A DNA stretch of 60,036 nucleotides from positions 71,949 to 131,984 of the forward strand of contig FN648436.1 in assembly GCA_000310025.1 (NCBI GenBank). The letters run 5' to 3'. Both the position numbers and the translations under genes were made by a program. A model generated the notes under the pieces. That model was not told where the DNA came from. It did no database searches and worked only from the letters and a program-made list of their open reading frames with translations. Source of the stretch: Ectocarpus siliculosus. Its lineage: Eukaryota; Sar; Phaeophyceae; Ectocarpales; Ectocarpaceae. Shown here piece by piece: positions 339-60,036 of this stretch (the first letter of the stretch is position 1; each line of letters starts with the position of its first letter).

Positions 339-3300
339 GCCGTGCTCTGGACCCTGTGGAGCAGACTGGTGAGGCTGCACGCCTACTTGAGGCAGCTGCT
401 GGCGGAAACTCCGGCACAGAAGCTGCAGATCTGCGCCGCGGTCAAGCGCAAGGACTGGGGCGTTCTCGTGGGATGCATGGATGCAGAGGTAAGACGATAA
501 GTTTGTTGGTGGGGCGTGTGTGTGGGCCCCGCGGGGTTGGTTGGATTTTGGGTAGCGGTGGAGTAGTTTTTCGTGGTATTTTAGTTGCTTTCTTTGTTGT
601 TGTTGTTGCTGCTGTCGTCGTCTTTGGTGGTGTTGTTGGTGTTGTTGCTGTCGCGTTGTAGGTTGTCGTTCTTGTTGCTGTTGCTGCTGCTGCTGCTGCT
701 GTTCTTGTTGCTTGCTTTTTTTTCATCGCCGTGGTGTCGACGGCTGGCTCATGACGATACGATTGCTGCCGCTATTTACTCAACAGTCACCCCAAACACA
801 CCTAACTCCCGCAACCGATTAATTCTTCTTGCTCAACTCACACACGTAAAGTACATCTATCCAGCTCCGATTCCTCCTCTCGTTAATCCTCCACTGGCGC
901 AAACAGGCGGCGCACCAGCGCAGCGCGGTTCTGTCTGAGATCGAGGCCGAAGCGGAAGCGGACGAGGGCGAAGATTCCCCCGCTAGGCCATCCGGACCGG
1001 GGCGCGCTCTGCAGGGGAGCATGAAGGTCGTCAAGGGTTTGTGTGGTGCCCTCGACCGCATGGTGAGTGTTTTTGTTCTTTGCGAGTCACTGGTCTCCCT
1101 GAGTTGATAGTTACGAACATCGAAGGGGGGCAATGGGGAGGGTAGAGAGGGACTCTTCTGTGTGACCACGGGTCGGAATAAACGGCACTAGTGCTGTGAG
1201 CGCTGATTTGAAGTGAAGAAAAAAAAAAAAAAGTGATGGATCGACTCGAGTGTTATTTGTTTCCGGTTGAGTGCAAAGAAGTTCATGCAGCGGCCAAGCG
1301 AAGATGGTTGATCTTTTTATGAGTGTGTTCCACCCGGCGCTCCTTTTCTTGTTCAGTTGTTCAGAAAGAGGCGCGTACATCGAAGTATTGTACCCTGGAC
1401 CTCGTGATGAGCTGCTGTTGTTGCCATGTAGAGCTGGTTTTCACAGAAGTTTCTAACAAAAAAAGGAAAACTCTGCCGCGAGATTCTACTTGTAGTAGGA
1501 CTGATTTTCTTCCTCGCTGTAGACTTGTGAGACAATCATCGCTCCATCCTCATCGGTTCCTTGTTCTCTGGTGTGTCTAGGCTGCTCTGGCTTTGGAATG
1601 CTTAAGACACCTCCGCTATCTTTTATGTCTGGCGTCGCGCTTGTTTGGTGGCTGACGTCATGATCGTGATCGATCGCAGGTGACGGAGATGCTCCTTTGC
1701 GCCGACACGGTGCCGGAGAGCGTGCTAAGGAGAGCCGTCGAGGTGCTTGCTTCTCAGTGCTACATCAAGGTATGCATGTATGCATGCATGCATGTATTAT
1801 TCACGTCGTGGCTGTCGGTTTGGGAAGAGAAATACTCGAGCACCGATGGCCTGGGGTAAATTGGCGGGTGGGTTTTTATGGCGAGGGTGTTACAGTACAC
1901 AAGAACGGATTATGAAGTAACGGAATGAGAGGATAAGAGGAGGCGAGGCCGGAGCTAAGGTGGGCCAAAGTCTACTACTGTAGAGAGAAAATAGCCAACG
2001 TGGTGATGGGTCATCGTCTCTTGAGGTGTTGGCAGCTCCCTGCCTGCGGGGGCACACAGGGTGCAAGTTATCGCTTTCACCCGAACCGCAACGAGTTTCG
2101 CCGCGTTTCTTATCCTCTACTAAAGGTATATGAATGTGTACGTAACTGCTGTGCTGTTTCAGGTGGTGTGGACGAAGTGGGAAGACGCCTCACGTTCTGG
2201 TGCACATCATCGCGTGCATCCGAACCGTAATATTTTTCGCCGCGTTTTTTTCTGTTCGTTGATGTATAATCACGTTGTTGTCATCTGCTGTGTCTTTTTT
2301 TCAGGTGGTGGACGAAGTGGGAAGACACATCACGTTCCGTTACGAGGGCGTGCTTCCTCTCGCCGATCAAGAGCTGCTTGCACTTCTCGACGTCCTCGTT
2401 AACAAGGCGGATCTCATAGAGGTACCTGCATACAAGCAATTGGAGTGATGGTTGGTCGTCCGGTTCTCTAGCCTCTCGCCCCTCCCTAGCATACAATAAC
2501 TGCACGATGTTTGTGAACGATCCTAACTAATGGGAGTCATAAAACCACCGCAACAATCTGCACTCTAGGCTGCTAACGACCGTGGGCACTTTCTTGGCCT
2601 AAAAGAAATGTCATCTCGAGGCCTAACTGCATAGGTATATTTTTTATTCATGAGGTCGACCGGGTTGGTAGATGTCATGGTGTATCGCTCCACAACAATC
2701 ACCCCTAACTTCCGTCAGTCTATCGCACACAACAAGTCCCCGACGTATACCCAACCGACAACCCCGAGCGTACGAGGATCCACCCGCGACCCCTTCCATG
2801 AAACGGCTGGTTCAACACGAAGCCGCTATGGTATCTCAGACTTCTCTTCATCGTTGTAACGAAAACAACGGGACCACTCCTGGCACCCACCCCCACACGC
2901 TCCCTGGTCTCAAACGAATTGGCAGCGAACGCTCCAGCCTCGTCTCGACCTCGTCGGGTGGAGGTCGTCGCCCCCGCCTCTGCTCACCAAGGCCGTGAGC
3001 GTGCCGTGGCTGCTCCGGGCGTACGCCACCAGCATCGAGGGGAAGCTGTCCGGCCTGTTTAGGAACATCCTCGACACCAACAAGGTACAGTACAACAGAG
3101 TTTTCAGGTGTACAACTGTTTATTTAGGAACATTGTCAGCACCAATAGGGTGTGTCCAGCATTTTGTTTTAACGTGTACAACTGTTTAGGAACATCCTCG
3201 ACAACAGTAAGGTACGGTACAACAGAGTTTTCAGGTGTACAACTGTTTATTTAGGAACATCCTCGACAACAGTAAGGTACAGCAGTTTTTTTTACCGTGT

Positions 3301-6300
3301 ACAACTGTTTATTTAGGAACGTCCTCGACACCAATAAGGTACAGTACTACAGAGTTTCCAGGTGTACAACTGTTTATTAGGAACATCCTCGACAACAGTA
3401 AGGTACAGCAGTTTTTTTTACCGTGTACAACTGTTTATTTAGGAACGTCCTGGACACCAATAAGGTACAGTACTACAGAGTTTCCAGGTGCACAACTGTT
3501 TGGTTAGGAACATTGTCGACACCAATAGGGTGTGTACAACAGTTTTTGGAAGGTTTACAACTGTTTAGGAACATCCTCGACACCAATAAGGTACAGTACA
3601 ACAGAGTTTTCAGGCGTACAACTGTTTATTTAGGAACATTGTCTACCCTAACAGGGTACAGCAGTTTGTTAGGTATGTACAGCTGCTGAGGGATGTCCGT
3701 GGCACTATCAAGGTACAGCAGTTTTGCTACGAGGCACGGCTGTTTCGGAACGTTCTCGACACGAATCACGATTACAGCTGTTTAGGAAAACCCTCGGCAA
3801 TAGTAGGGTATCTGAACAAGGGCAGGAGAAACACTGATACTTGTTGTTGGGGGGGTAGACAAGGCTCCGTCCTAAGACACTGTCGGGCGTTGCCTGTTGT
3901 TGCTCTGGCTGTTGACCTGAACCACGCAGAAAACAAACGTTGTCTTGCGCACCTTGTTTCCTGTATATATCAACATCTCATGTGTATACTGGCACAACAC
4001 CCGATGGTACTTTTGCTGACTTGCATTTTTCAAAGTGTTTTTTCTGTCTCCCGCTTTCTTTCGCTCGTTTTGTTTCTCGCTCTTTTTTTATTTCCGCTCC
4101 TTTTTTTTTTTCGCGTCTCTGATAGGAAACCCACGAGTTCCCTCCCGAGCCATCGGCAACCTCAGACCAGGCGGGGGAGGGGAACCCACAGCCCAAATCC
4201 CCTACCAGCAACGCCCTCATGCGCATGAAGCTAGCAGGCCGGGGGGTAGGGGTGGGAGGGACCAAGTCGAAGCAGCGGCGGCAGCAGCAGCAGCAGCAGC
4301 TCGGGTTTTCCATGTGGACGCTGCACGAGTCGACGGCTAAGCCGTTGTCCGTGGTGCCCACGACGGCGATAGCGCTTCTGGACACGTATGTCGTGACGGT
4401 GGCGAAGAGGTTTCCAGACGACGCAGGCGTGCAGGTGCTAAGGTGTTTCTGGGGGGGGACAGGGGGCGGGAGGATATACGGGGCAGGGGGGTTCGTACTT
4501 GTTTGTAGGGCAAGGGGTGGAGGCCAAGGGAACGGAAGTACTTACACGCTTCTTTTTCCGAGGGTGCGTGTTAAGATGAAGACAGGCGGCTATCCTACCT
4601 ATTTAGCCTAACACCTAGCCCCAACCCTGACCGTCAAGACAAGTTTCGTCGTTGGCGCCCTTCGATGTGGGAGGCAACGATACCCGCGTGTGCGTCCCCT
4701 GCCCTCCAAGATTCCAAGACTGTTTGTGTGTGTGTGGTTCCATCCCATTTTCGACGAAAATAGTCCGGAGTTACCGTATATGACACAAGATAACACACCC
4801 CCTTGGCCGATTTTCAAAGCTCGATTTCTCAACAGCAGGAAGAGTCACAGCGCCGAAAACGGCGGCGTTGGAACCGTCTCGTCGAGAGCTGTTCGAAAAC
4901 GTATTGTTTCATTTATGCATCCTCTTCGTCGTGGAGTAATCGAGCTTTGAAAATCGGTCCAGGGGGTGTGTTATCTTGTGTCATATACGGTATACCTGTC
5001 AAAGGTGGTTACAGCAGTCCCGAACCTTGAACCCATTTTTTTTCAAAGGCAATCGCTGTCTACCAACCTGTCGGCCTTTCGAAGGAACTGCATCCATCTC
5101 TAGAGTCGGGGGGGATACCGCAAGGATGCGAGAGAGCGCACGGTGCGGTGATATCGCACGTGCCGGCGATATCGCCCCGGCGTGCGATAAAGAGTCAAGA
5201 ACAAAATCATTCAAAAATCGATCGCACACCCGTGCGCTATCTCGCACCCTTACGGTGTTGTTTGTTTTGGCGGTTCGTCCCAGAATTGCGTGTTTTGATT
5301 CTGCGGGGCCCCACTACCCAACACTTAGGGGCCCCAACACTGCTGTGCTGCGCCGAGTTCTGTACGTAAAAAGAACGCGGTAATTTCATTCCATGGCGGC
5401 CGCCCCTAGTATCACCTTTACGACATGCGTGGGCAACAAACACCTAGTAGAAAGACTTTGCCTTTTACGATTACCCTAACATTGTTTGATGTGACCGAAG
5501 GACAACATAAACCTGTGAACAAAAACGTCAAAAAAGTCGTTTCAAGGGCCGAAACTGGCTCCGCTTCAGATGCCTTCACGTTCTACCACAACTTAATAAA
5601 GCAACTCTGCTACCCGCCCCCCCCTCCCGCGAAAATATAATAGGCCGTCATTCTCAGGGCGGGCGCAGGCGCCCTCGGGTCTCTCCGCAACGTCATATCG
5701 GCGCACGCTGAGGCGGCGGTCTCGCAGTGTCCGGAAAAGGGGTGGGACAAGCTTCTGAGATTTCTGTGCGCCACGGCGAACGATTGCTGGCACCTCGTGT
5801 CGGAGGCGTTGCCGGCGATAGAGGAGAGGCATCCCCAGGCTATGTCTGGTGAGGGGGAGTGTTGTGTTGGTGTTGTGCTGTGGTGACGTGCACGCGCGGT
5901 CTTGGTTTAGAGGTTGTTGTTGTTGTTGTTGTTATTGTTGTTATTGTTGTTGTTGTTGATTATGATGATGTTGTCGTTGTTACTGCCGCTGCTGCTCCTG
6001 CTGTTGTTGTTGTTGCTGTTGTTGTTGTTGATGACGATGATGATGATGTTGTCGTTGTTACTGCTGCTGCTGCTGTTGCTGCTGTTGTTGTTGATGATGA
6101 TGATGATGATGATGTTGTCGTTGTTACTGCTGCTGCTGCTCCTGCTGTTGTTGTTGTTGTTGTTGTTGTTGTTAATGTTATCGGTGGCGATCTATGTCCG
6201 GCAAGACCCAGCAGCAAGAATCTGTTTCACGCGCGCAGGTTTGCACACGCGCAGGTTTGCACACACGCAACACTCGTGGCCGCATGGATGAGTAATAATT

Positions 6301-32830: not shown

Positions 32831-32999
32831 AGACAACACCTATCCTTATCAATTCATGCTTCTTCCGGGAAACACTCGACAGATTTTCACTAACGACATC
32901 GGATCCAAACCTGTTTCACCAAGCGCTGAAGTAAAACAGACAAGACAGGAGTATACAACTCCCATCTGTCGCACGCGCAACACTCATCTCCTTAAAAGG

Positions 33000-33470
33000 G
33001 CAATCAATCCTTGGCTAGTCAACCTTCCGTCGCTTCAACTAGAACCCACACCCGAAGCATCCACCAAGTCCCATCTGTTGTTGCTTGAGTGGCCCCTCTC
33101 CGGAATCGTTTCGAAATGGCGCCCCAATTCGTGATCCCTATGATGAAGCGAAGTGATTTCGCCGTGGGGGACACAACATGGAACGCCACTACGAAACGGT
33201 TCCAGAGAGGCGACACTCAAGCCACAACACATTGGGCAAGTTACAGGGCAATCGATGCTTGAGAAGTCCACCTTCCGTGATTTGCACTAGAACCGACACC
33301 CCGAAGCTCCGTCAAGCCCCGGTTGTGACTCGAGTGTCCAGATTCGTTTCGTACTGGCGCTCCATTTCGCAACGCGAAACGGTGCCCTACGACGAGACAT
33401 TTCAACGCGAACTGATTCCGTAGACGGGACACTCCAGCCACAATAGCTTGGCGCTTCGACCGCTACGACA
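33000..33470. repeat. Diverged tandem duplication (~247 bp)
   Basis: The block starting ggcaatcaatccttg (33000) is repeated from 33247 (ggcaatcgatgcttg). It shares ccttccgt, actagaacc, cacccgaag and gtttcg...tggcgc. It lies just downstream of the importin alpha stop. Confidence 0.7.
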
Positions 33471-42349: not shown

Positions 42350-45300
42350 TCATGCCTCGAGGGCCTTGAGGGCCTCCTTGCTGTGGGCGGCGCCGTCGAG
42401 GAGGTTGTCGTACATGCTGGTTACGACACCGTTCTTGTCCAGGACGTACGTGACGCGGCCGTCGATGGTGCCGAACACCGCGCCCTTCACCTTCCACGCC
42501 TTGCGCACCTGATTTCGCCAAGTTCCGGTCAAGCAAGACAAAAAGGGACAACCAACAAAAGGGCTCGGTTGGGGGGACGGTGCAACCTATCGACAAAGAG
42601 GGCCCATCAGCGGCCAGGCGCAAGTGACGAGGTACGCGGGTTCGGGGCGTAAAGATGGTCTGGAGAGAGGGGAAAAAATCCACACGTTGCAAAAGGCAAA
42701 AAGTTTCCCTCCGAGTCTGGCTTGTAAGGTGTATTCGAAATTGGATTGGGCTGCTGTCACTCGTTCTTGTTCATGGCGCTAACCAAGCGGCCGCTAGATG
42801 GAGACTTCCCCGTGCATCCAATAGGCGAGAAGGTTTCCGTCGCTGTCGGCGGAAAGAAACGACGAAATGACCAAGTGATTAGAATTGCTTGCTGCCAATA
42901 GCGGTGAGATAGTGATAAGACGCGAACTGGGATCAGCATCTACAGGTGTGCGGTTATCATTGATAGTCTACAAGAGGGACCCGAGTAGGACGTGCCATCT
43001 ACGGTAGCGAGGAGCAAAGTGATCAACTTTCACAGATTGATGTCTTTGCAACGTCAAGGATGCCACGAGATGTGTACAAGATTTAACCAGCACCAACCGA
43101 GTCAAATTGTTACTTGCTTCACTGCAAACAGACGGGGTCAAATGAACGTGCAGCACGGGTGACACCTACGCAACACAGATCCCACCCAACACAGGCCTGT
43201 GTGACAAAAACAATGCCTCACGGAAGGTCCCTACCTTGCCGCCGATGTCGCTCAACAGAGTCATGCTCAAGTTGTTCTCCTTCACGAACTCGGTGTGGTC
43301 AGCGTCGCTGCTGATTCCGATCACTTCCGCGCCGGCCTTCTTGAACTTTGCGAGGTCGCTCTGGAAAGTCTGGGCCTCTTTCGTGCAGCCTGGCGTGCTG
43401 TCCTTGGGGTAAAAGAACACCTGGCCGGCAGTGACAAGAAATATCGTTTGGGGCGTACAAGATTCAGAAGCCGTTACACGTCTACGGGGGACCTGGGGGG
43501 TGTATGACGGTGTGGCGGAAGCCCCAGAAGGGTTGTAAGTTTTGTCTCGATCATCGATAAAGGTCTTGAGTTGACCTTATTCCTCTTGCGGTCTCTGGTG
43601 AGCCTGCTAAATACAAACACGACATTGACACCGTTAGGCCTTTCGGGACCGACCTTGTGTACTGAAAATCGTTTTGGATGACCGTTCTATAGCTGCAGTC
43701 GATCGATCGATCGATCGCTGTCTGACGCCATCGGCCACAAAAAGATCTTGTCCAACCGAGCTCCAACGGCCGTTTGAACTGTTCACTGGTTGCGCCTTAC
43801 CACCGACTAGGACTTTCGGCGATTTCCCTTGACAGACTGAAGCAGCAACAACGACAGCGCTATTCCCCCCCACGCCGTGTCTTGTGCGTGGTAGGAAATA
43901 GGGACCCCGAAGCGATAGGAGGCTCGGGAGTTGAGTTGGCAAGGGTCAACACGCTGTTAAAAAAAACAACCGAGGAAATTGTTTTCTGCAATGCCGCCAG
44001 CTTGTTTTGTCGGCGATCCCTCTTCACAGGTGAAAGCAGCGGTAATGCCAAAGCTGTGGCTGTGGCGCGTTTTGGGTGCTTGTCAATAGAGATCACGAGG
44101 GGTGAGGACGCTCGCAAATCGAGTCGACGAGCGTCGACAACAACGAAAAAAGGCCTGCCACCGACGAGGCCAGCTTTTTAATACCGCGTCACTTGGTGTC
44201 ACCTGTTTTTGTTTTTCGATGGCCCCTCTCTGAAGGCCAAGCAACCTCTATCCTCCCACAGCGAGGTTCAGATGGCTCGGGTGGTGATTAGGAGAAATCG
44301 GCAGGCTGCGCACTAGAGCAGGGCATCTACGAGATTTTTGCGACGATACAAGTATACTTCCTATCTGGCACCACCCATGAACTTTAACGTGTTGGCTAAT
44401 TCCTTAATAATTGCGGCCCTACAACCACTCCCTGCGCCTCTTCTGAGGAACTCAAAAGCTCTTCACTTTTAGCCACAACGCTGCGGCGTCGAGCTGTCCC
44501 CCTACACAGCGTGCTGTGCCTGAGGCCGGCGTTCCGCACGGTGACAAAACTTATTCTCCTCCGAGAGACCGATTGCGGAGCTGGAATCGCAACAAACTGA
44601 GTCTTTTGGGGGCTTTCGCGAGAGCCACGGCCTCAGCCGCGGCCAGCTCCGCCCCAGTCAGCTACATTTGTGGTCTCTGCTGTTCCGGGGTATGGACGAG
44701 GACCTCTTCCTTGGATTTCTTCGCCTCTGTACATGCCTGAAACTCGTCTGCCACCACGCCTAGATATAAGCGTGTCTCTCTCTCGTCGTCGTCGTGTTGA
44801 GAACGCGCCGTTGACCCCAACCCTAGGAAGTGAAATATGGCGAAGTGCCTGGGATGGGTGAGGTCACCGTGTGCGGGGCACTCAAAAGAGGTACCGTGCC
44901 GATGCAAGTACCCCGCACACGGTGGCCTCGTCCACATCAGCCATATCGCCATATTTCCCTTCCAGGTGTTGGGGTCGCCGGCGCGTTCTCAACACGACGA
45001 CGACGAGGAGCAAGACACCCAGTCGCAGGCGGAGTCCAGTGTGCATCCCGGCAGCAAACGGACTACATAGAAACGGGAGGGGACCCGGGATTACAGAGAC
45101 TGCGATGCCAGCTGCCCGAGGCTCAGCTGACAGCGGCTAAGGCCGTGGATCTCGTTACAATTCCAGCTACTCTCGGAGGAGAATGAGTTTGTCGCCGTGC
45201 TGGACGCCGGCCTCAAACACAGCACGCTAGCTAGGCGGATAGCTCGACGCTGCAGCCTTGAGGCTAAGCGGAAAGCTTACGAGTTCCTCAAAAGAGGAAC

Positions 45301-46203
45301 AGGAATTGGATACGGTGGCAATTCTTTAGGAACTAACACACATGTCGAAATTCATCGGCGGTGCCAGAAATAGGAGTTTTGGTAGATAATCCACCAACGG
45401 CGGACTGCTCATTGCTCACCACCACTTTCTTCTTGTTCTTGAAGCTGCTTAGCGCCACCGGCTTCCCGTTCTGGTTGTTGAGCTTGAAGTCTGGCGCCGC
45501 TTGGCCGACGGAAACCATCCGCAAAGCCGTGGAGCTAACCCTCTGACAATAGTTGGCATGACACAAAAGAGTGCAAGGATATAAACAAGTTCCGCAACCA
45601 AAATTTACATGTACGACTACAGCATAGACCATGCATATCACATTTTCGTACTGCACAAGGCACACGACCAGACTAGACTACAGCAGTATACCAACGAAGG
45701 GAGAGCTACATATTACAGCAGTAGATTCTGGGTGGAGAGTGCTGAACCACAAAGTGAACATACACACATACGACGGAGTCGCACAACATGAAATCATTGC
45801 GGAAGGCATGGGACAGACAAGGCCATGTCTGGAAGCGCCCCCCCCTATTTTGATTTTGCCCGCTCACTACTGCTGCTGTACACATGAACACGCAGGTCCG
45901 CCTCGATGGGCGAACGGCCAGGGGACGACACGTCACCAGTGCTGCAAACATGTGCAATACTTGGATTTTCAGCCGGCCACCACACTGCTGTCCATGCAAA
46001 GCGCACCCCGTAATGGCCAAGGATACAAGACGAGTCCGCACTGGTTGGCCTTGTGCAGGAGTCCATATCCCGTGCCCCAGACCTGGACACACCTGTGCTG
46101 ATCCCGAAGTTTGGAGGGCGGAGCGGCCCAGAGCTGCGGGAACAAATCCGTTCGCCTGACCCACGAACGCCAGAGCCGCGCAAGCCGTCTTCATTCCGAA
46201 CAT
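42350..46203 (-). CDS. Plastid peroxiredoxin Q (BCP family), single-cysteine form
   Basis: Complete 192-residue model, four exons, all phase 0: 46203-46093, 45542-45420, 43420-43235 and 42508-42350 (TGA). The family reduces peroxides through a peroxidatic Cys. Residues 1-20 are a signal peptide followed by [11 protein letters not shown], the heterokont plastid-import motif with Phe at the cleavage site. The mature domain has [38 protein letters not shown] (peroxidatic Cys90), [10 protein letters not shown] and [10 protein letters not shown], all typical of PrxQ. Gln95 stands where most PrxQ proteins have the resolving Cys (PGCTxxxC). Cys90 is the only Cys of the mature chain, so it should work as a 1-Cys enzyme needing an outside thiol. 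Intron 2 (43421-45419) holds a large inverted repeat. It is divergently arranged with the PsbP-like gene. Confidence 0.93.
44396..45343. mobile_element. Large inverted repeat (foldback element) in peroxiredoxin Q intron 2
   Basis: The left arm (44396 to about 44895) matches the reverse complement of the right arm (about 44905-45343) along nearly its whole length. Matching blocks include tgaggaactc, gcgtcgagct, gaggccggcgt, ttctcctccgagag and, near the centre, cgtcgtcgtgttgagaacgc and accgtgtgcggggca. The loop is only about 10-30 bp. Degenerate, related open frames ([20 protein letters not shown] in the right arm; frameshifted in the left) suggest an inverted duplication of a decayed coding sequence of unknown family. 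Confidence 0.8.
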
Positions 46204-46731: not shown

Positions 46732-49700
46732 ATGCTTCGCGTTGTCACATTCGCTGCGGTGGTGGGGTGTTCCAATGGTTTCGTCGCACCGAACGCCGTC
46801 CGGGCAGGGAGCAACCCGACTCTCGAGGTCAGTCCGCTTTCTCCCCGACACAACAAACGCACGCGCGTCCTTACCCTTATCTGCGTCGTAGTCATGATTG
46901 GGTACATGTTTGTTGTCTCTGGCTGTACTCTGGTACGTGCTTAGACTCTCCACCGTGTACGCTACAGAGTGGTTGTTTCAGGAGCGCTTTGTCACGAGGG
47001 CCTTTTGAAAACATGAGTGGTCATGCACATAGAGATCATGCACAACCCTTTCTTGTCTCGTCCTCTATCAGACCCCAGCGGCGCGCCGAAGGCAGCAAGC
47101 AGTATACGTGAAACAGGTTGCTTACAGCGGACTTTATTCTGGTACAGCAGTGTTGAACTCTCACGCACTTGCACCGCTAGTCTGCTACCGACATAACTTC
47201 TACAAATGTCGATTTATTGTAGTATTGCACTGGACTTTGGTCTTCACCCTCCGGCCCTTCGTTCCTGTCCTTTTCATCGTCGGCGGATCTCTCTCCCTGT
47301 ATACGGATAAACAGAAAGGCAGGAGGATGGGAGATAGAGAAAAATGCGAGTAGACGGCGGGCATGGCACACAGCGGTAACGGCACTGAGTGCCTGATCGC
47401 GTCGACGTTGTTGAGTATATGAGGCTAATCCTCCTAACCAAAGTTAGTGAGCTTTTGGTGTACAAGATAGACGGCCCCTTCTACCCTAGCGTCGGGAGCT
47501 TTCTGTTGTTGTTGTTGTTGTCTCTACTTTAAAAAACCGTTCCGGTCTCCGCTCAGTACCTTCTCATGTCCGTATACTACGGTCCAACTGGCGCGGACTC
47601 CTTCCGTGGTCACAAGCCAGCTACCCCCAAAAAGGGGGCAGCTTTTTTGTTGGAGTTCGAATTCTAGACCTCCTCTCTCTCTGTGTCCGGTGACCTCACA
47701 CATCTGACGGAGTGTGTGCACACAGCCCAGCTGGTGCGTTCACGGGATCTGACCCACGCGCCGGGGGAAATGCTCGGGATTCTCGACACCCGTCGTCACT
47801 CGTTGCACCCTTCCGAAGCGTTGCCTGCTGTGTTTTGGCACGATTTCAAGTGCAATGGGGCATGCTCTCAACCCTAACCCTAACCCTAACCCTAAGTCAC
47901 ACCTCCAAGCGACAGGAATGATTGGGTGTCAATTCGATGTGTTCAGTGCTCACATCCCTCTAAGCCCTTCGTATCGGAACTGGCCTTGCATATATAGTTC
48001 CTCCTCTCTGTGTATAGGGCCGATCTTAACATTGACCTCCATCTGGACGTCCGTACTGTTTGGAACCTCTGCTTTCCGCTACACATTCTCCCCCAAGCGG
48101 CACACCGTACGGATGTCAGCGGAAGGACCGTCGGACAGGGCGCAGTTCCTGACGACTTCTGCTGCCGTGGCTGCTTCTGCCGTGATGCTGCCGTTGGTGG
48201 CCGTGGCGGATGAGGGGGAGGCAAGAGCGGTTTCAACACTCGTCTTGTTTTTTATCCAGCATCGGCCGCGCTATCCGGCTGACCAATGAAGAGACGTTAT
48301 GTTTTGTAGCGGGATAACAAACTTGTGTTCTTTCTTATTAGCATCGACGGCGCTGACCGGCTGACCAATGAAACCCGTAAGTCTCAGTGCGGTGTAAAAC
48401 ACGAAGTGCTTCTATAGGCCACTGGGACCCTGTGACCGATTGTCATGGGGGGGTCAACTTGCGTGTGTGCGTGTGTATGCACTGTTGTGGTTGGTTGTGT
48501 GCTTGCTTTTTTGAACAGGGTTTTGGTGGAGTTTAGAGCCACACTTGTCTCGCTGTTCGCGTTTTTTTTCTCCTTTCCGCCCATGGGAAGCAGACCGGAT
48601 CGAAACAGGTGAAGCTCGTGACTACCAAGCTCGGCGGGAAGCTCGAACCTTTCGCGGACGTCTCCAAGGGCTACCGCCTGGCGAAGCCACTGGGATGGAA
48701 CCGTTACGACGGGACTTCGGGGGAGTACACAGTCAAGATGGTGGACCTCGTTGACCCCACCACACTTATCTTGCTCACCAACTCGCCGGTCAAATCCGAC
48801 ACCGAGGTGGGGAGAGTGTTAGATTTCGAAGATGCCGTCCGTTCCTGCGTGTCAGTTAGATGTGGACCAGGCTATGTAGTTCTAGACCTCCACCTAACTG
48901 ATCATGCTCAAAAGGAGAGAACCACTGCAACCCTAAGGTTTCTGTGACGCTCGGGCCGCGCGTTACAAGGGCAAACTGCGGTGCAATGTTTCCCCGAAGC
49001 ATGCATGTAGTCTATCCTCTTTGGTCAGCACTGCGCGATTGCGTCGAAGTGGTGCTATGTAGTCTATGTACGAGGTTACTAGTAGATGAGTCAACGCAAT
49101 CGCCAAACTCCAGGTATTGGTCTCTAGGTTTTGGTGGAAGGCCGAGCCTAGAGGTCATTTTGTGCGTCCGCGCCTCCGATGGCTGGATTTAACCCCTGTC
49201 GGCGACGATCGGATCACGCCCTGCCGGTCGACCTAACGACCACAAGGAAGCGAGCTCTCCAAACCTACAACCAAAGCGATAGACCCTCTCTATGCCCCGA
49301 AGCCCACTCTCAACCATGCACGCTATGAATCCATCACAGCCTGCCGTGCGGTAGTGTGCTCTTCGATGCTCATGCTTTTTACCATCCCCGGATGCTCGTG
49401 CGCTTTTCTTTCTTTCGATGGTTCCGCCGGCCGTTGTCCGGCAGTTGTCCACGCTAGGATCCGCAACCCAGGTCGGCGAGAAGCTGAGCAAGGGGAGGGA
49501 CATGGAGTTGGTCAGCGCAAGGGATCGGGTCACAGAAGGCATCCGACTCTACGTGAGGATTTGTTGCCGCACGTCCTAGCCTGCTGCTATGGCTCTCTGT
49601 GCCCCCCTGTGCTCTCGCGAGTTGTTACCTCTCCTTTGTGGGTGACACCCGCAGTTTGTTTCGAGGCTAGTGATGATTTCCCCTCGGTAGACGACGTGTA

Positions 49701-53915: not shown

Positions 53916-56900
53916 ATGGACGCGAGCAGCCTGTTCGGGGGCGGGCCTCCCGGGGGCACCGCCGCCGCTGCTGCCACCTTCGCCCCCAGCAACGCAAGCG
54001 ATGACGCCCCCCGCTCAGCGGCTTCGCTGTTTGGCGGAGAACCCGAGGACAACCTGGCCAATCCGCCGGGATCAGGCGAAGGCCAGCAAATACAAGGCGT
54101 GCCGGACGACCTTTTCGGCGGCGGCGGTGCCGGCTCCGGAGGCTTCGGTACGTCGCCTTCACCGCAGGCTCCTTTTGGTGGGGGCTCCGCAGCTGGTACT
54201 TTCGGGGCCCCGCCGCCGGTGCCCGCGGGAGCCGTGCCGGAGGAGTTGTTCGGCGGTAACGGCGGGGGGGGTGCCGTTCCGCAGGAATTGTTCGGCGCTA
54301 GCGGTGGAGGGGGTGGTTCCACGTTTGGTTTCGGGGCAGAACACGGGACGAGGAGAACTAGCTCCGAGGTGCACACGAGCCCGCCAGCGACATCGGCGAC
54401 GCCGAATGCCCTTGGCGGGGTGTTCCCGGGGCGGTCATCACCGCCATCAATGTCGGGGGGCAGCAACCCCACGCCTGCGGGACCCCCGACCGCCTCCTCC
54501 AAGCAGGGCGACGGCGGCAGCGGAGGCTTCGGCGCCCCTCCTTCGAACGCGTTGGGCGCGCCGCCCGGCGAGCTGTTGGGCGGACCCCCTCCGCCCCCTT
54601 CTCCCGGCCACGACGCTTTCGGGGTCGCATCCTCCGTGCCACGGCCGCCGCCGCCGCCGTCCGACGCGGCAACAAGAAGCAGCAGCCTCGGCTCTTCCCC
54701 CCCCCCGCCCCCCCGGGCCCCCGGGGGTCCGCAGAATGATGGGTTTCCGCCAGGTGCTGCTGCGCTCTCGGCGCGCCAGCCGGGGGGGAGTCTTGGTGGC
54801 AGCCCTCCTTCCTCCGAGCTTGGCTCGCCTCCCGCTACGATGTTTGGGGCGCCCCCCCCCGGAGTTTTTGGAGCGCCGCCTCCCCCCGCGCCTGCCGAGC
54901 TTGGGTCTCCCCCAAGTTCGGTGTTTGACGCGCCATCGTCGGGGGCGTTCGGGCAGCCACCGCCAGGCGGCGGTCGTGGAGCCTTCGGAGCGCCACCTTC
55001 AGCGGCGTCGGGCCTTGGCTCTCCGCCATCTTCGGTGTTCGGTGCACCCCCCCAGGTGGGTTTTAGGCGCGCCGCTGTTTGGGCCGAACCGGTGGAATCT
55101 TTTGAAAGGCGTGATGGTGTTGTGGTGTTCAACAGAGTTGCGATCGGCGCTGCAGCCAGAGGCGTAGCAGGTTGATCGAACACCCCACGGAGAAAGTACG
55201 GCTGTGCGTTCTGGAAATCGTCGACAGTACTGAGTGTCGGGGTATCAAGTGCACTAGCCGTAACGAAGACCGACAGCCGCAGAACGCGTGTATCTTCAGG
55301 TCTTGATCATATTTGTTGATGGGGGCTCCGCACACATGTTATGGGCACAGGTGTACACCTTTGCGCGGACACTCAGTCCTGCTGGTGACGCCGGAAGACA
55401 TGTCTTTTTCGTGTGGGATGCACGACTAATCTGTTACACCCCCTGGCTGCAGCGCCGATCCGAACGTATTGGTTGCAAAGCTCTGTTGCTGCTCTGTGCA
55501 CACAAAAAACATGACGCGCCTATCGATTTTGGCAAGTGTAAGGGTTCGGATGTAGGTGCTAGCAAACACCTGTGAGGGGTCATGCAGATTTCGTGACAGG
55601 AAGCGGTTGTTTGGAATGAGTATCGATGGCAGTGGCACAAGGCTGGTAACCTGGTTCGCTAAACGAAGACATCAGAGGGGCTCCGGAGAATCGTTGTGGT
55701 GGCCCTCTCTACAAGTAACTTTTCTCCGTAGGGGATCGACAAATAGAACAAGCTTCTTCCAGAGCAACAACAGCTAGTTTCATTTGTCGCAAAGCCCCCT
55801 GGTAAAACGTGTTGTAGTTTCGTCGGGAGTATTCTAACGACACATGTGCGATGCTTGATGCGCTACCGCAGGAAGGGCCGATGCCACCTCGCCCGGGTTC
55901 ACGGACCGGGAGCCCTCCCACCGCCGTAGCGCTTGGCGTCGCGCCTCGGGACGCGTGCACGGCAGTAGCGCCGCAACCGCATTCTTGGGGCCGGCCAGGC
56001 CGCGACAACAAGCCTCCCGCAGCAGCCCCGATGGCTGGATCCCCTCCTTCTGCCGTGTTTGGGGGGGCTCCGCCTGGGTCATCCGTGGGGGGGTCGCCTC
56101 CTGCGGCTGGCGGGTCTAGGTCACCACCGCCTTCGATGTTCGGGGCGCCTCCCGGAGAATTGTTTGGAGGGTTACATTCGGCAGGAGTCGCGTCTCCTAC
56201 CCCCGCGGAATACGGGTCCCCTCCCGCAACGCGTGAACGCGGCCCGCCTACGGCCTCGGTGTTTGATTCGCCGTCACGGCAGGAAGCGTCTGAAGTGCCG
56301 CCGCAGCAGCCATCCGGGAGCTTCGGTGGTGGCGTCGGGGTAAAACGCCAAAGCGGGTCTCCTCCGACAACAGCAGACCTCGGCTCGCCTCCGGCCTCAA
56401 TGTTTGATGCGCCACCGCCGGCGGCCCAGGAAACGCCCGGAGTGCCGCCGCTGCAGCCACCCGGGAGCTTGGGCGGTGTCGGCGCAAGACACCCAAGCGG
56501 GTCTCCTCCCACAACGGCAGACCTCGGCTCGCCTCCGGCCTCGATGTTTGATGCGCCACCACCGCCGTCGCAGCAGGAAGCGTCCGGAGTGCCGCCGCAG
56601 CAGCCCCCCGGGAGCTTGGGCGGTGTCGGCGCAAGACGCGAAAGCGGGTCTCCTCCGACAACGGCAGACCTCGGCTCACCTCCGGCCTCAATGTTTGATG
56701 CGCCACCGCCGGCGGCCCAGGAAGCGTCCGGAGTGCCGCCGCAGCAGCCACCGGGGAGCTTCGGCGGTGTCGGCGCAAGACGCGAAAGCGGGTCTCCTCC
56801 CACAACGGCAGACCTCGGCTCACCTCCGGCCTCAATGTTTGATGCGCCACCGCCGGCGGCCCAGGAAGCGTCCGGAGTGCCGCCGCAGCAGCCACCGGGG

Positions 56901-59900
56901 AGCTTCGGCGGTGTCGGCGCAAGACACCCAAGCGGGTCTCCTCCCACAACGGCAGACCTCGGCTCACCTCCGGCCTCAATGTTTGATGCGCCACCACCGC
57001 CGTCGCAGCAGGAAGCGTCCGGAGTGCCGCCGCAGCAGCCCCCCAGAAGCTTCGGCGGTGTCGGCGCAAGACACCAAAGCGGGTCTCCTCCCACAACGGC
57101 AGACCTCGGCTCGCCTCCGGCCTCAATGTTTGATGCCCCTCCGCCGTCGCAGCAGGAAGCGTCCGGAGTGCCGCCGCAGCAGCCACCCGGGAGCTTCGGC
57201 GGTGTCGGCGCAAGACGCCAAAGCGGGTCTCCTCCCACAACGGCAGACCTCGGCTCGCCTCCGGCCTCAATGTTTGATGCGCCACCGCCGGCGACCCAGG
57301 AAGCGTCCGGAGTGCCGCCGCAGAAGCCACCGGGGAGCTTCGGCGGTGTCGGCGCAAGACGCCAAAGCGGATCTCCTCCCACAACGGCTGAACTCGGCTC
57401 ACCTCCGGCCTCGATGTTTGATGCGCCACCACCGCCGTCGCAGCAGGAAGCGTCCGGAGTGCCGCCACAGCAACCGCCCCGGATCTTGGGCGGCGGCGGT
57501 GGCGGCGGGGGCAGTGGCGGCGGCGGCGTAAGACGCCCAAGCACAAGACCGTTCGGCTCCGCCTCGCGCGATATCGGTGACGCTTGGGAAGGTGATTCGT
57601 TTGGTGGCGGCGAAGCGGAGGGCGCGGGGGATTCAAGCGCCGCGGACTTGTTCGGTTCGTCGGCGGCGGCGGTAGTGCCCGAGGAAGACATTTTCGGCGC
57701 GGCAGCAGGGGGCTCCGCGGAACGGGCTGGTGGGGGGTGGCAGGGGGAGCAGCGACAACACGAGTCTGCTGGAATGGAGGCAACGTCGTTTGGGTCCCCG
57801 GCGCAGCAGGGGGACGCGTTTGGAGGGGGGGGCGCATTCGGAGGGAACGGCGAGGAAGACCAGTCGTGGTGGCAGCAAGGCGAGGCCGGAAACGGTGAAA
57901 CGGCAGCAGTTAGTCCGCCGATGGACACGTCTGCTGGCACCGCCCCAACAACCACGCGGGAAGAGGGAGGCTCCGTCGCCGTGGACTCGTTCGAAGGATT
58001 CGGCGGTGCACGCGAGGGGACCCCCGAAGCGTCACCATCTCCCGGCACACCACCGGAAGAAAATAACGAGGAGCCTGGGCAGGCCGATTATTCTTCGCCC
58101 CCGGCTTTCCCGCAGGCAAGCGAAGAGGAGGAGGACCTCGGAGCGCCGCCGGCTGACATGTTCGGGCCTCCGCCAACGGCGGTTGCCCACTTCGCTCAAC
58201 CCGAGGTGAAGGCTCAACAGAAGGGAGGAGGGGCTCCGCCGAATCGGTCTCCGAGGGCCGGCGCTCCTGCGGCGGCGGCGGAAGCGGGGCCGCCGCGGCC
58301 ACAGTCACGGTATGGCGGCGCCAAGATTGACGTGGGGGACCTTGAAGGGGTTGCGGCGGGGGGACCCGCGGCGGGAGTTGGGATCGAAGCGGGCGCGGCT
58401 TCTGGCCCCGGAACGCCGGCGGTAGCCGCGGCGGGTACGTGGGCGGCGAGCCGGGCGGCGTCGCCGGGGTGGGAGAAGCAACCGTCGCCCCCGCTGGAGC
58501 TCGGCGTGTTCGGCGAGCCCGCTCCCGCGGAGGCGTTCACGTCCGAGACGACGGCGGCGGCTGCTACGGCGGCGGCCGATCTGTTCGGCGCCTCTGGTGG
58601 AGTTGATGCCGCCGTCGGAGAGGGGGGACCAGGCGAGGGTGACGCGGGGTACCAAGGGTGGGGAATGTACGCCGCGGATGCTGCCCCCGGGGGGTCGGAC
58701 TTGTGCGCTCCCTCCTCCTCCGCGCCTACGGCGCTGCCGCCGCCCCCGCTCGCTACCGGCGCCCCGCCGTCCCCGCGGTCGTCGTTTGTCGCGAATGACG
58801 GCCACGGAAGCCTGACCATCGCCGCGTTGGCCTCGGCAAGCGTTCCCCCTTCGACACCGCCGAGGCTCTTCGCGACGCGGTCTTCGTCGTGGGCGGCGCA
58901 GGACAAGGCGCAGGCGGAAGGCCACGGCCAAGGTTTCCAGCGAGACCAAGGGGGCGTGTTCGCGAAGAGGGACCACCCGCCGAGCAGTTCCGCTTCGACG
59001 GACGGGCCTGAACCAGCTGCCGAGGACAACGACGACCTTTGCCAGGGAGACAGCGGCTCGATGATGGCGTCGACGCCGCCCCCTCTCGGGGCGGTAGAGG
59101 CGGCGGCGGCGGCGGCGGAGCTGACTCGGTCTCCCGTAACAAGCCCTCGACCCACCTCTCCAGGAAGCCCTGGAGCTGCCTCCCCGGCAGACCGCCACCG
59201 CGGCGGCGGCGGCGGCGGCGCGAAGTCGGCGAGGTACTCGCAAGCCCACCAGCCGCCGTTTTCCACCATCCCGGAAGCGTTGGACGCGCAAGGCCCGCCG
59301 AGCTTGCGCGGCGCCCCGGCGGATCATCGTCCCGAGGGCGGGTCAGCGACCAGCCTCGCGCCGAGCGGCAGCACGCGAAGCGGGAGCAACGAGCCGGCGG
59401 TGGCGGCGACGCCCCCGGAGGGCGGGGGTAGGGTTGGGCCCGGTTCGACCCTAAGCACCCCGTTCGGGGCCTGGAGCAGGGGTTCTGGGACTACCCCCGA
59501 GGTAGGAGAAGGGTTCCCGTCCTCGGAAGATGACGAGGTTCTGGACGAGTCCCCGAACATACTGTCGCCGCCGTCGGCGGTGGCGGCGGCAGCGGCGGTG
59601 GGTAAGGATAACGCTGCGGAGGAGGAGCCTTCGGGATCATCGAAAGCGGAGCCGGCTTCGGTTGCTGTGCCAGCAGGCGTGTCTGTGGAAGGCGCCGGCG
59701 ACGGTGGTGGTGCCCTCAACGCCGCCTTTGCCCTTCCTCCCCCCCTTCTTGGAGGCGTGTCTGTGGAAGGCGGCGATGGCGGTGCACAAAACGCCGCCTT
59801 TGCCCTTCCCCCTCCTCCTGCCGTTGATGTCGCTCCTGTGGCACCCGTTGGTATTACCGGCGCCGTCGGGGATACCGGGTACGGGGGAAAGGAGGGGGAG

Positions 59901-60036
59901 ACCATCTCCGAGGAGGTGTCCCGGGCGGTGGAGGGCAAGGAGGACGAGCAACCTCGCGCCCCCCCCCCGCAGGCGGCAGCGAACGACCCGCGGGCGGCGG
60001 ATTCCGCTGCTTCGGAGGAAGCCGCCCAGAAGGTGG
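53916..60036 (+). CDS. Large Pro/Gly/Ala-rich protein with [DE]-[LIM]-F-G repeats (3' partial)
   Basis: Exon 53916-55055 (380 codons, donor gtgggt) joins in phase 0 to an exon that starts at 55872 after ctaccgcag and stays open to the window end, at least 1,768 residues in total. The chosen start is MDASSLFGGG; the frame is open to an ATG at 53835, but that part looks like an intron tail (pyrimidines, then cag), so the true start may be further upstream. The chain is low complexity with many short motifs of one kind: DDLFGG, EELFGG, QELFGA, SVFGAPP, SMFDAPPP, DMFGPPP, DLFGSS, EDIFGAA and DLFGAS. Eight 48/49-residue repeats lie at 56351-57510. No catalytic domain is visible. The style recalls disordered scaffold regions of COPII Sec16-type or endocytic adaptor proteins, but this is a guess; a conserved domain may lie beyond 60036. 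The opposite strand is also open (779 codons) only because of the repeats. Confidence 0.72.
55135..55465. mobile_element. Inverted-repeat element in the intron of the large repeat protein gene
   Basis: gatcggcgctgcagccag (about 55141) and its reverse complement ctggctgcagcgccgatc (about 55443) anchor arms of about 45-70 bp, around a ~250-bp core. The left arm begins about 80 bp after the splice donor. Confidence 0.6.
56351..57510 (+). repeat. Coding minisatellite, eight 144/147-bp units
   Basis: Unit starts (aagcggg/aagcgga) lie at 56351, 56495, 56642, 56786, 56930, 57077, 57221 and 57365. Spacings are 144 or 147 bp, all multiples of three. Each unit encodes SGSPPTTADLGSPPASMFDA, then PPPAAQEASGVPPQQPPGSF, then GGVGARRE or a variant. 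Longer units carry PPPPSQQ instead of PPPAAQ. A partial, older unit precedes at about 56231. Confidence 0.95.

Follow-up and report, generated by a model that had tools for sequence, protein, structure and literature searches.

A tandem array of an exon end and its splice donor in a predicted intron of Ectocarpus siliculosus and its probable origin as a junction-seeded minisatellite

In a 60,036-nucleotide stretch of the Ectocarpus siliculosus genome (contig FN648436.1 of assembly GCA_000310025.1, positions 71,949 to 131,984 of the forward strand), hereafter called the window, a plus-strand gene was identified in whose fifth predicted intron the end of the preceding exon and its splice donor recur twelve times in tandem. 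Considering the alignment of the copies, their frame and their base composition, this array was reasoned to be most likely a neutral minisatellite which was seeded at the splice junction by slippage or unequal exchange, which lengthens the intron and which is tolerated; nothing was found that points to a function beyond drift. The DNA of the window, evidently eukaryotic, has many introns, which are T/G-rich and several hundred bases long, and its left edge holds part of the gene in question.

Structure of the array and its gene

The array was delineated by scanning both strands of the whole window with a 33-nt core comprising the exon end and the donor, whereby a threshold of 20/33 was applied. 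Thirteen places with at least 20 of 33 matches were returned, all of them on the plus strand, and none was found elsewhere in the window, hence giving no sign of an introner- or transposon-type dispersal within these 60 kb. The first copy (copy 0, starting at 3058) coincides with the end of predicted exon 5 and its donor; the other twelve of the 13 lie between the predicted donor and the predicted acceptor of intron 5, start at 3123, 3185, 3250, 3312, 3376, 3438, 3503, 3564, 3629, 3686, 3743 and 3781 and span 3123-3807. A preliminary description of the array had counted about twelve intronic copies, which is borne out by the scan, and had given its extent as 3054-3790, which calls for slight correction: the stretch shared with the intronic copies begins within the exon at 3055 (CTGTTTAGG), whereby 30 coding bases (3055-3084, plus strand) belong to the repeat unit and the array stands in register with the exon end, and the far end reaches about 3807-3815. 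The exon end and the gtacag donor, which the preliminary description had taken for the unit, are indeed both included, but the unit also holds about 30 nt of intron, and alternate units possess an acceptor-like ttycag, with ttycag/G (the slash marks the splice border) being present in five of them. Likewise, the claim that most copies carry a GT stands, as GT is kept in 11 of the 12 intronic copies; AG/GT or GG/GT was found at the donor position in 11/12, the complete gtacag only in 7/12 and AAG/gtacag in 6/12.

The diverged copies are arranged head-to-tail with a unit of about 62-65 bp, which places the 13 copies, together with their higher-order repeat of 126-127 bp, among the minisatellites (head-to-tail units of about 10-100 bp). 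Unit spacing alternates between about 65 and 62 bp and then shortens distally. As a consequence of this alternation, Tandem Repeats Finder (TRF) reported, next to a period of 65 (9.2 copies), also periods of 126 (4.8 copies, score 773) and 191 (3.1 copies), and a repeat search returned five 108-nt copies spaced 126-127 bp. The alignment revealed two alternating unit types, A and B, of which A possesses a gtacagtac...gagttttcag-like stretch 3' of the exon-like part and B a shorter T-rich one. The blocks 3251-3375 and 3377-3501 are identical at 123 of 125 positions at a lag of 126, which points to 3251-3501 as the most recent expansion, thus to recent growth, and suggests a recent change in copy number; the three distal copies are degenerate, having retained 17, 20 and 19 of 27 exonic positions. 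When 3085-3815 was shuffled 300 times, preserving base content and not dinucleotide content, matches of at least 22/33 occurred with a mean of 0.003 and a maximum of 1, as compared to the 12 observed. Given the divergence among the copies, a simple assembly stutter is unlikely, and the true copy number could differ from 13. The RNA fold of the array was found to be unremarkable (z -1.26, 3/20 shuffles equally stable), the 60-kb window gave no Rfam match at gathering scores, and in viral contigs the exact 19-base core pattern yielded no matches and a protein query 14 pattern stretches, of which none was confirmed.

The exons of the gene were placed via its open frame and splice consensus, which resulted in six predicted plus-strand exons at 339-488, 907-1062, 1680-1769, 2305-2421, 2926-3084 and 4126-4437 and probably two further ones downstream. 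All six are divisible by three in length, and their GC content at third codon positions (GC3) ranges from 0.64 to 0.91. Predicted exon 5 (2926-3084) follows a ggcag acceptor, comprises 53 codons with phase 0 at both ends and ends with LFRNILDTNK at an AAG/gtacag donor; position 3084 was inferred to be the exon end from frame, splice consensus and GC3, the latter amounting to 0.91 for 2926-3054 and to 0.90 for 3055-3084. Predicted intron 5 (3085-4125, plus strand) measures 1041 nt, of which the array takes 723 nt (3085-3807), and the four placed introns upstream measure 418, 617, 535 and 504 nt; as intron 5 runs 318 nt beyond the array, it looks pre-existing. Predicted exon 6 (4126-4437, ETHEFPPEP...) begins at the acceptor gatag/GAAACC and is uncertain at its 3' end. 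Splicing by hand yielded a product of 432 amino acids from eight segments, with the borders of the last two (about 5.66-6.56 kb) set by eye. Compared with Pfam, this product gave nothing above the cut-off (best NTPase_1, 19.2 bits vs 23.9), and among the four solved structures listed none was a convincing match (best E 0.13, part of a lipid kinase); a FANCI/FANCD2-type helical repeat protein had been suspected, which no search supports. The next predicted intron holds a palindromic stretch of about 220 bp (4772-4992, 75% identical to its own reverse complement) that resembles a foldback element or a miniature inverted-repeat transposable element.

Origin and growth of the array

The exon copy deviates from the consensus of its 12 intronic counterparts at a single position (32/33 identical), and over the 27 nt compared its GC3 is 0.89, as opposed to 0.56-0.78 for these counterparts in that frame. 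A GC3 like that of exon 5 together with the consensus match fits, and does not prove, an exonic founder. Under a codon null that assumes a chosen transition bias and counts copies, not independent events, 13 of the 46 changed codons in the intronic copies are synonymous (9.8 +/- 2.9 expected at random, P 0.17) and the absence of stops from all 12 has a P of 0.64, hence neither the synonymous-change test nor the stop test supports coding selection on the copies, and both the codon changes and the lack of stops agree with neutral drift. In the copy alignment, conservation of the donor columns (G in 13/13, T in 12/13) does not exceed that of several columns around them, and six other columns reach 13/13.

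The suggested course of events assumes that initially a short tandem duplication arose across the donor-side border of exon 5 (about 3055-3116, i.e., 30 exonic and 32 intronic bases), which became a minisatellite and in which a block of two units (126-127 bp) formed. Subsequently, slippage or unequal exchange would have driven growth to 13 units, whereby the 3251-3501 pair would represent the newest step. Splicing is assumed to still proceed at the first donor, 3084, because this donor adjoins the exon body and all later ones break the frame. The copies would drift neutrally as intron filler, with the array being mostly tolerated noise and perhaps giving rise to a low level of mis-spliced, early-stop transcripts.

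A second duplication of this kind was found in the same gene. Here, the last part of intron 4, together with about 33 initial bases of exon 4, is present twice in tandem, namely as a decayed upstream copy (2060-2197, plus strand) and as its partner (2199-2337, plus strand), which contains the predicted acceptor (2304) and the exon 4 start; the two are identical in 102 of 142 columns. The upstream copy keeps tttcag/GTGGT, and its exon part has two extra bases; its decoy tttcag acceptor ends at 2162, 142 nt before the predicted one, and splicing to it would insert 142 nt and break the frame. Two adjacent introns thus each carry a junction-straddling duplication, one on the acceptor and one on the donor side, which suggests that local duplications across splice junctions were not a single accident in this gene.

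Donor choice, pseudo-exons and alternative readings

Using a U1 5' end other than the host's own, and duplex energy as a crude donor score, the predicted U1 pairing of the 11 GT copies ranges from -5.1 to -7.9 kcal/mol, as compared to -7.9 for the donor at 3084 and to -5.7, -5.7, -9.6 and -11.1 kcal/mol for the four other placed donors of the gene. Copies 3312, 3438 and 3564 equal the 3084 donor (-7.9) and copy 3185 reaches -7.6; by this score the decoy donors rank with the weakest of the donors belonging to the gene itself, or a little below them. A shift of splicing to any of the 12 later positions was found to yield no in-frame open product, as each ends in a frameshift or an early stop. 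The first later donor (3149) adds 65 nt and thereby shifts the frame of the next exon, and the other 11 positions, one of which lacks GT, read into a TAG at 3187-3189 (plus strand), 34 codons beyond the exon. This stop comes from the repeat's own TTTAGG read in another frame and ends every read-through past copy 1. As the next copy is in another frame, reading through into it gives YLGTLSAPIG and no repeat of LFRNILDTNK. An array of alternative 5' splice sites serving protein variants was rejected on these grounds, and the proteins with duplicated LFRNILDTNK segments envisaged in the preliminary description are not obtainable via later donors; such segments would be possible only as cassette pseudo-exons. 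Its proposal of competing donors is borne out in so far as decoys with U1 energies near those of the gene's donors exist, none of which is productive as a shifted donor.

Among the AG-to-donor stretches listed, 21 are divisible by three in length and 17 of these are open. The most plausible of these measure 42 nt: one hypothetical pseudo-exon is found at 3235-3276 (tttcag/VYNCLFRNILDNSK/gtacag), and three further ones with ttycag acceptors at 3108-3149, 3488-3529 and 3614-3655 are equally hypothetical; all four are on the plus strand, open and in phase 0. The fifth ttycag unit on this strand (3362-3402) comprises 41 nt, and among additional hypothetical open candidates, which have poorer acceptors, one of 48 nt (3543-3590, plus strand) encodes LFRNILDTNK exactly. 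The acceptors of the ttycag units possess 6-7 pyrimidines in 12 positions and the gene's own predicted acceptors 4-11. The donors of 3108-3149 and 3488-3529 are gtgtgt, and 3108-3149 starts 23 nt from the donor at 3084, a distance too short for a normal intron.

Several of these findings weigh against a neutral minisatellite that started from the exon. The retention of GT in 11/12 copies and the openness of 17/21 stretches would be predicted by a role in splicing as well, and the U1 energies are as approximate as their derivation. Furthermore, the exon copy is equalled or surpassed in centrality by other copies: its mean identity is 0.859 among the first ten copies, compared to 0.879 for copy 3564 and 0.859 for copy 3312, and 0.813 among all 13, compared to 0.831 and 0.818, respectively, as a consequence of which the array could in principle predate the exon end. 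The total GC content of 3055-3084 (0.47) is also below that of the rest of exon 5 (0.71). Both the donor in use and the founder are, moreover, inferred from sequence.

Among the alternatives, the one that survives best, unlikely as it is, assumes that the decoy donors tune or lower the output of the gene, whereby U1 would be shared among them, later donors would lead to the TAG at 3187 or to a frameshift and hence to decay, and the effect would be set by copy number. This is consistent with the retained GTs, with the copies that match or nearly match the real donor in energy and with the early stop in every later-donor product, and nonsense-mediated decay (NMD) as an enabler of intron gain is described for Drosophila in the excerpted text of a published report (PMC2809761); however, the donor columns show no excess of conservation over their neighbours. 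It was considered somewhat less probable still that the junction-seeded minisatellite acts as a heritable copy-number dial of competing donors (unproductive splicing) and, by way of its alternate units, as a reservoir of in-frame 42-nt exons; in that case, as the gene carries two junction duplications, seeding of this kind would be a recurrent route of mutation in the lineage. Very unlikely is a reversed order of events, in which the first unit of an intronic minisatellite became exonised and LFRNILDTNK was added to the protein at a late stage: the non-central exon copy and the low total GC content of its exonic bases would be explained thereby, but its GC3 exceeds that of each intronic copy and resembles that of the remaining exon (0.91), and the homology ends sharply at 3055 within a continuous frame. 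That the units are small in-frame cassette exons, adding VYNCLFRNILDNSK-like segments to the protein, is hardly credible, as the four open phase-0 units, the exact LFRNILDTNK of 3543-3590, the many open stretches and acceptors within the gene's own range are countered by the 23-nt intron left to the first candidate, the 41-nt unit, gtgtgt as the sole donor in two of the four 42-nt units, four of the 17 open candidates ending at a copy without GT, a substitution pattern that is not coding-like, and a common frame that represents one inherited event and not several.

Published junction duplications and further features of the window

The preferred reading, in which a splice junction gave rise to a minisatellite that is tolerated, can be related to published cases, for which the excerpted text of the respective reports is followed here. 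The earlier statement that such arrays fall outside the standard repeat classes holds in part: structurally the array is an intronic minisatellite, and tandem duplications of an intron-exon border, or of stretches that contain splice-like sites, are on record (PMC4974935, PMC3629103, PMC2891723). In the RNA-dependent RNA polymerase (RdRp) gene of potato, a tandem duplication over the border of the first intron and the second exon gave a new intron (PMC4974935). As in the array, the signals of a splice junction that already existed were copied along with it; yet in potato the acceptor side was duplicated and a new intron detected, whereas here the donor side is involved, with 12 extra copies and a longer existing predicted intron. 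The duplication at 2060-2337, which has two copies and affects the acceptor side, is closer to the potato case (PMC4974935). The fission yeast genes SPOG_01682 and SOCG_00815 possess introns that consist of 24-nt tandem repeats bearing proto-splice sites (PMC3629103; PMC4974935), resembling the array in that diverged tandem copies occur in the intron and also in the adjoining exon and that each copy offers a possible splice site; there, however, an exonic repeat is held to have made the intron, whereas here a junction unit of ~62-65 bp grew in a seemingly pre-existing one (PMC3629103). In Drosophila, novel introns were reported to arise via tandem duplication of coding sequence, whereby duplicated AG/GY sites serve splicing and early stops lie within the introns, which is the likeness to the present case; the proto-splice sites were duplicated inside coding sequence, whereas the array resides in an intron (PMC2891723). 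For the [D] stwintrons of Lipomyces, duplication of the intron donor element was proposed, and the extra donor element copy within the intron was put forward as a source of alternative splicing, as it might be here; their donors, however, abut and the introns are nested, and the abstract makes no mention of a tandem exon-end array (PMC7138796). With intronic minisatellites and variable number tandem repeats (VNTRs) in general, the array shares its diverged tandem units of some tens of bp and its predicted location in an intron; unlike these, it begins inside an exon and copies the donor (PMC4039745). For Ectocarpus itself, a relatively even spread of tandem repeats over the genome has been described, together with long introns (median 524 bp on autosomes) (PMC12477816). 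As compared to the published junction duplications, the array has more units (13), is located on the donor side and lengthens a seemingly existing intron, and a multi-copy array of an exon end plus donor in an intron does not appear in the titles and abstract openings listed by the searches of an open library that were aimed at tandem repeats at splice junctions.

The array offers a natural series in which 11 related GT donors, each with an exon-like end, follow the real one within one intron, which makes it a test case for whether the spliceosome chooses a donor by its distance from the exon body or by U1 pairing. It also captures one stage in the lengthening of introns by tandem duplication across a junction, a process that could make exons as well. 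Should the first donor be the only one in use, the array represents an ordinary but instructive minisatellite, and its interest is modest unless the decoys prove to be in use.

Elsewhere in the window, two copies of about 53 bp stand in tandem at 48238-48372 and agree in 43/53 columns. Both contain a tract that resembles an acceptor, and the open frame downstream of them gave a weak PsbP match below the threshold (17.4 bits vs 23.5); the two copies may constitute another duplication near a splice junction. A self-complementary stretch of about 1 kb (44359-45375, 67% over 1081 columns) is possibly a large foldback element, and a palindromic stretch of about 166 bp (33070-33235, 71%) overlaps and is then followed by a direct repeat (32997-33131 and 33245-33369, 73%). 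The Gly/Pro-rich open frame 55818-60035, which had no Pfam match at E 0.01, contains a coding tandem repeat of 144 bp in 8.4 copies (56269-57493, TRF). Finally, open frames with RCC1 repeats are present in the window.

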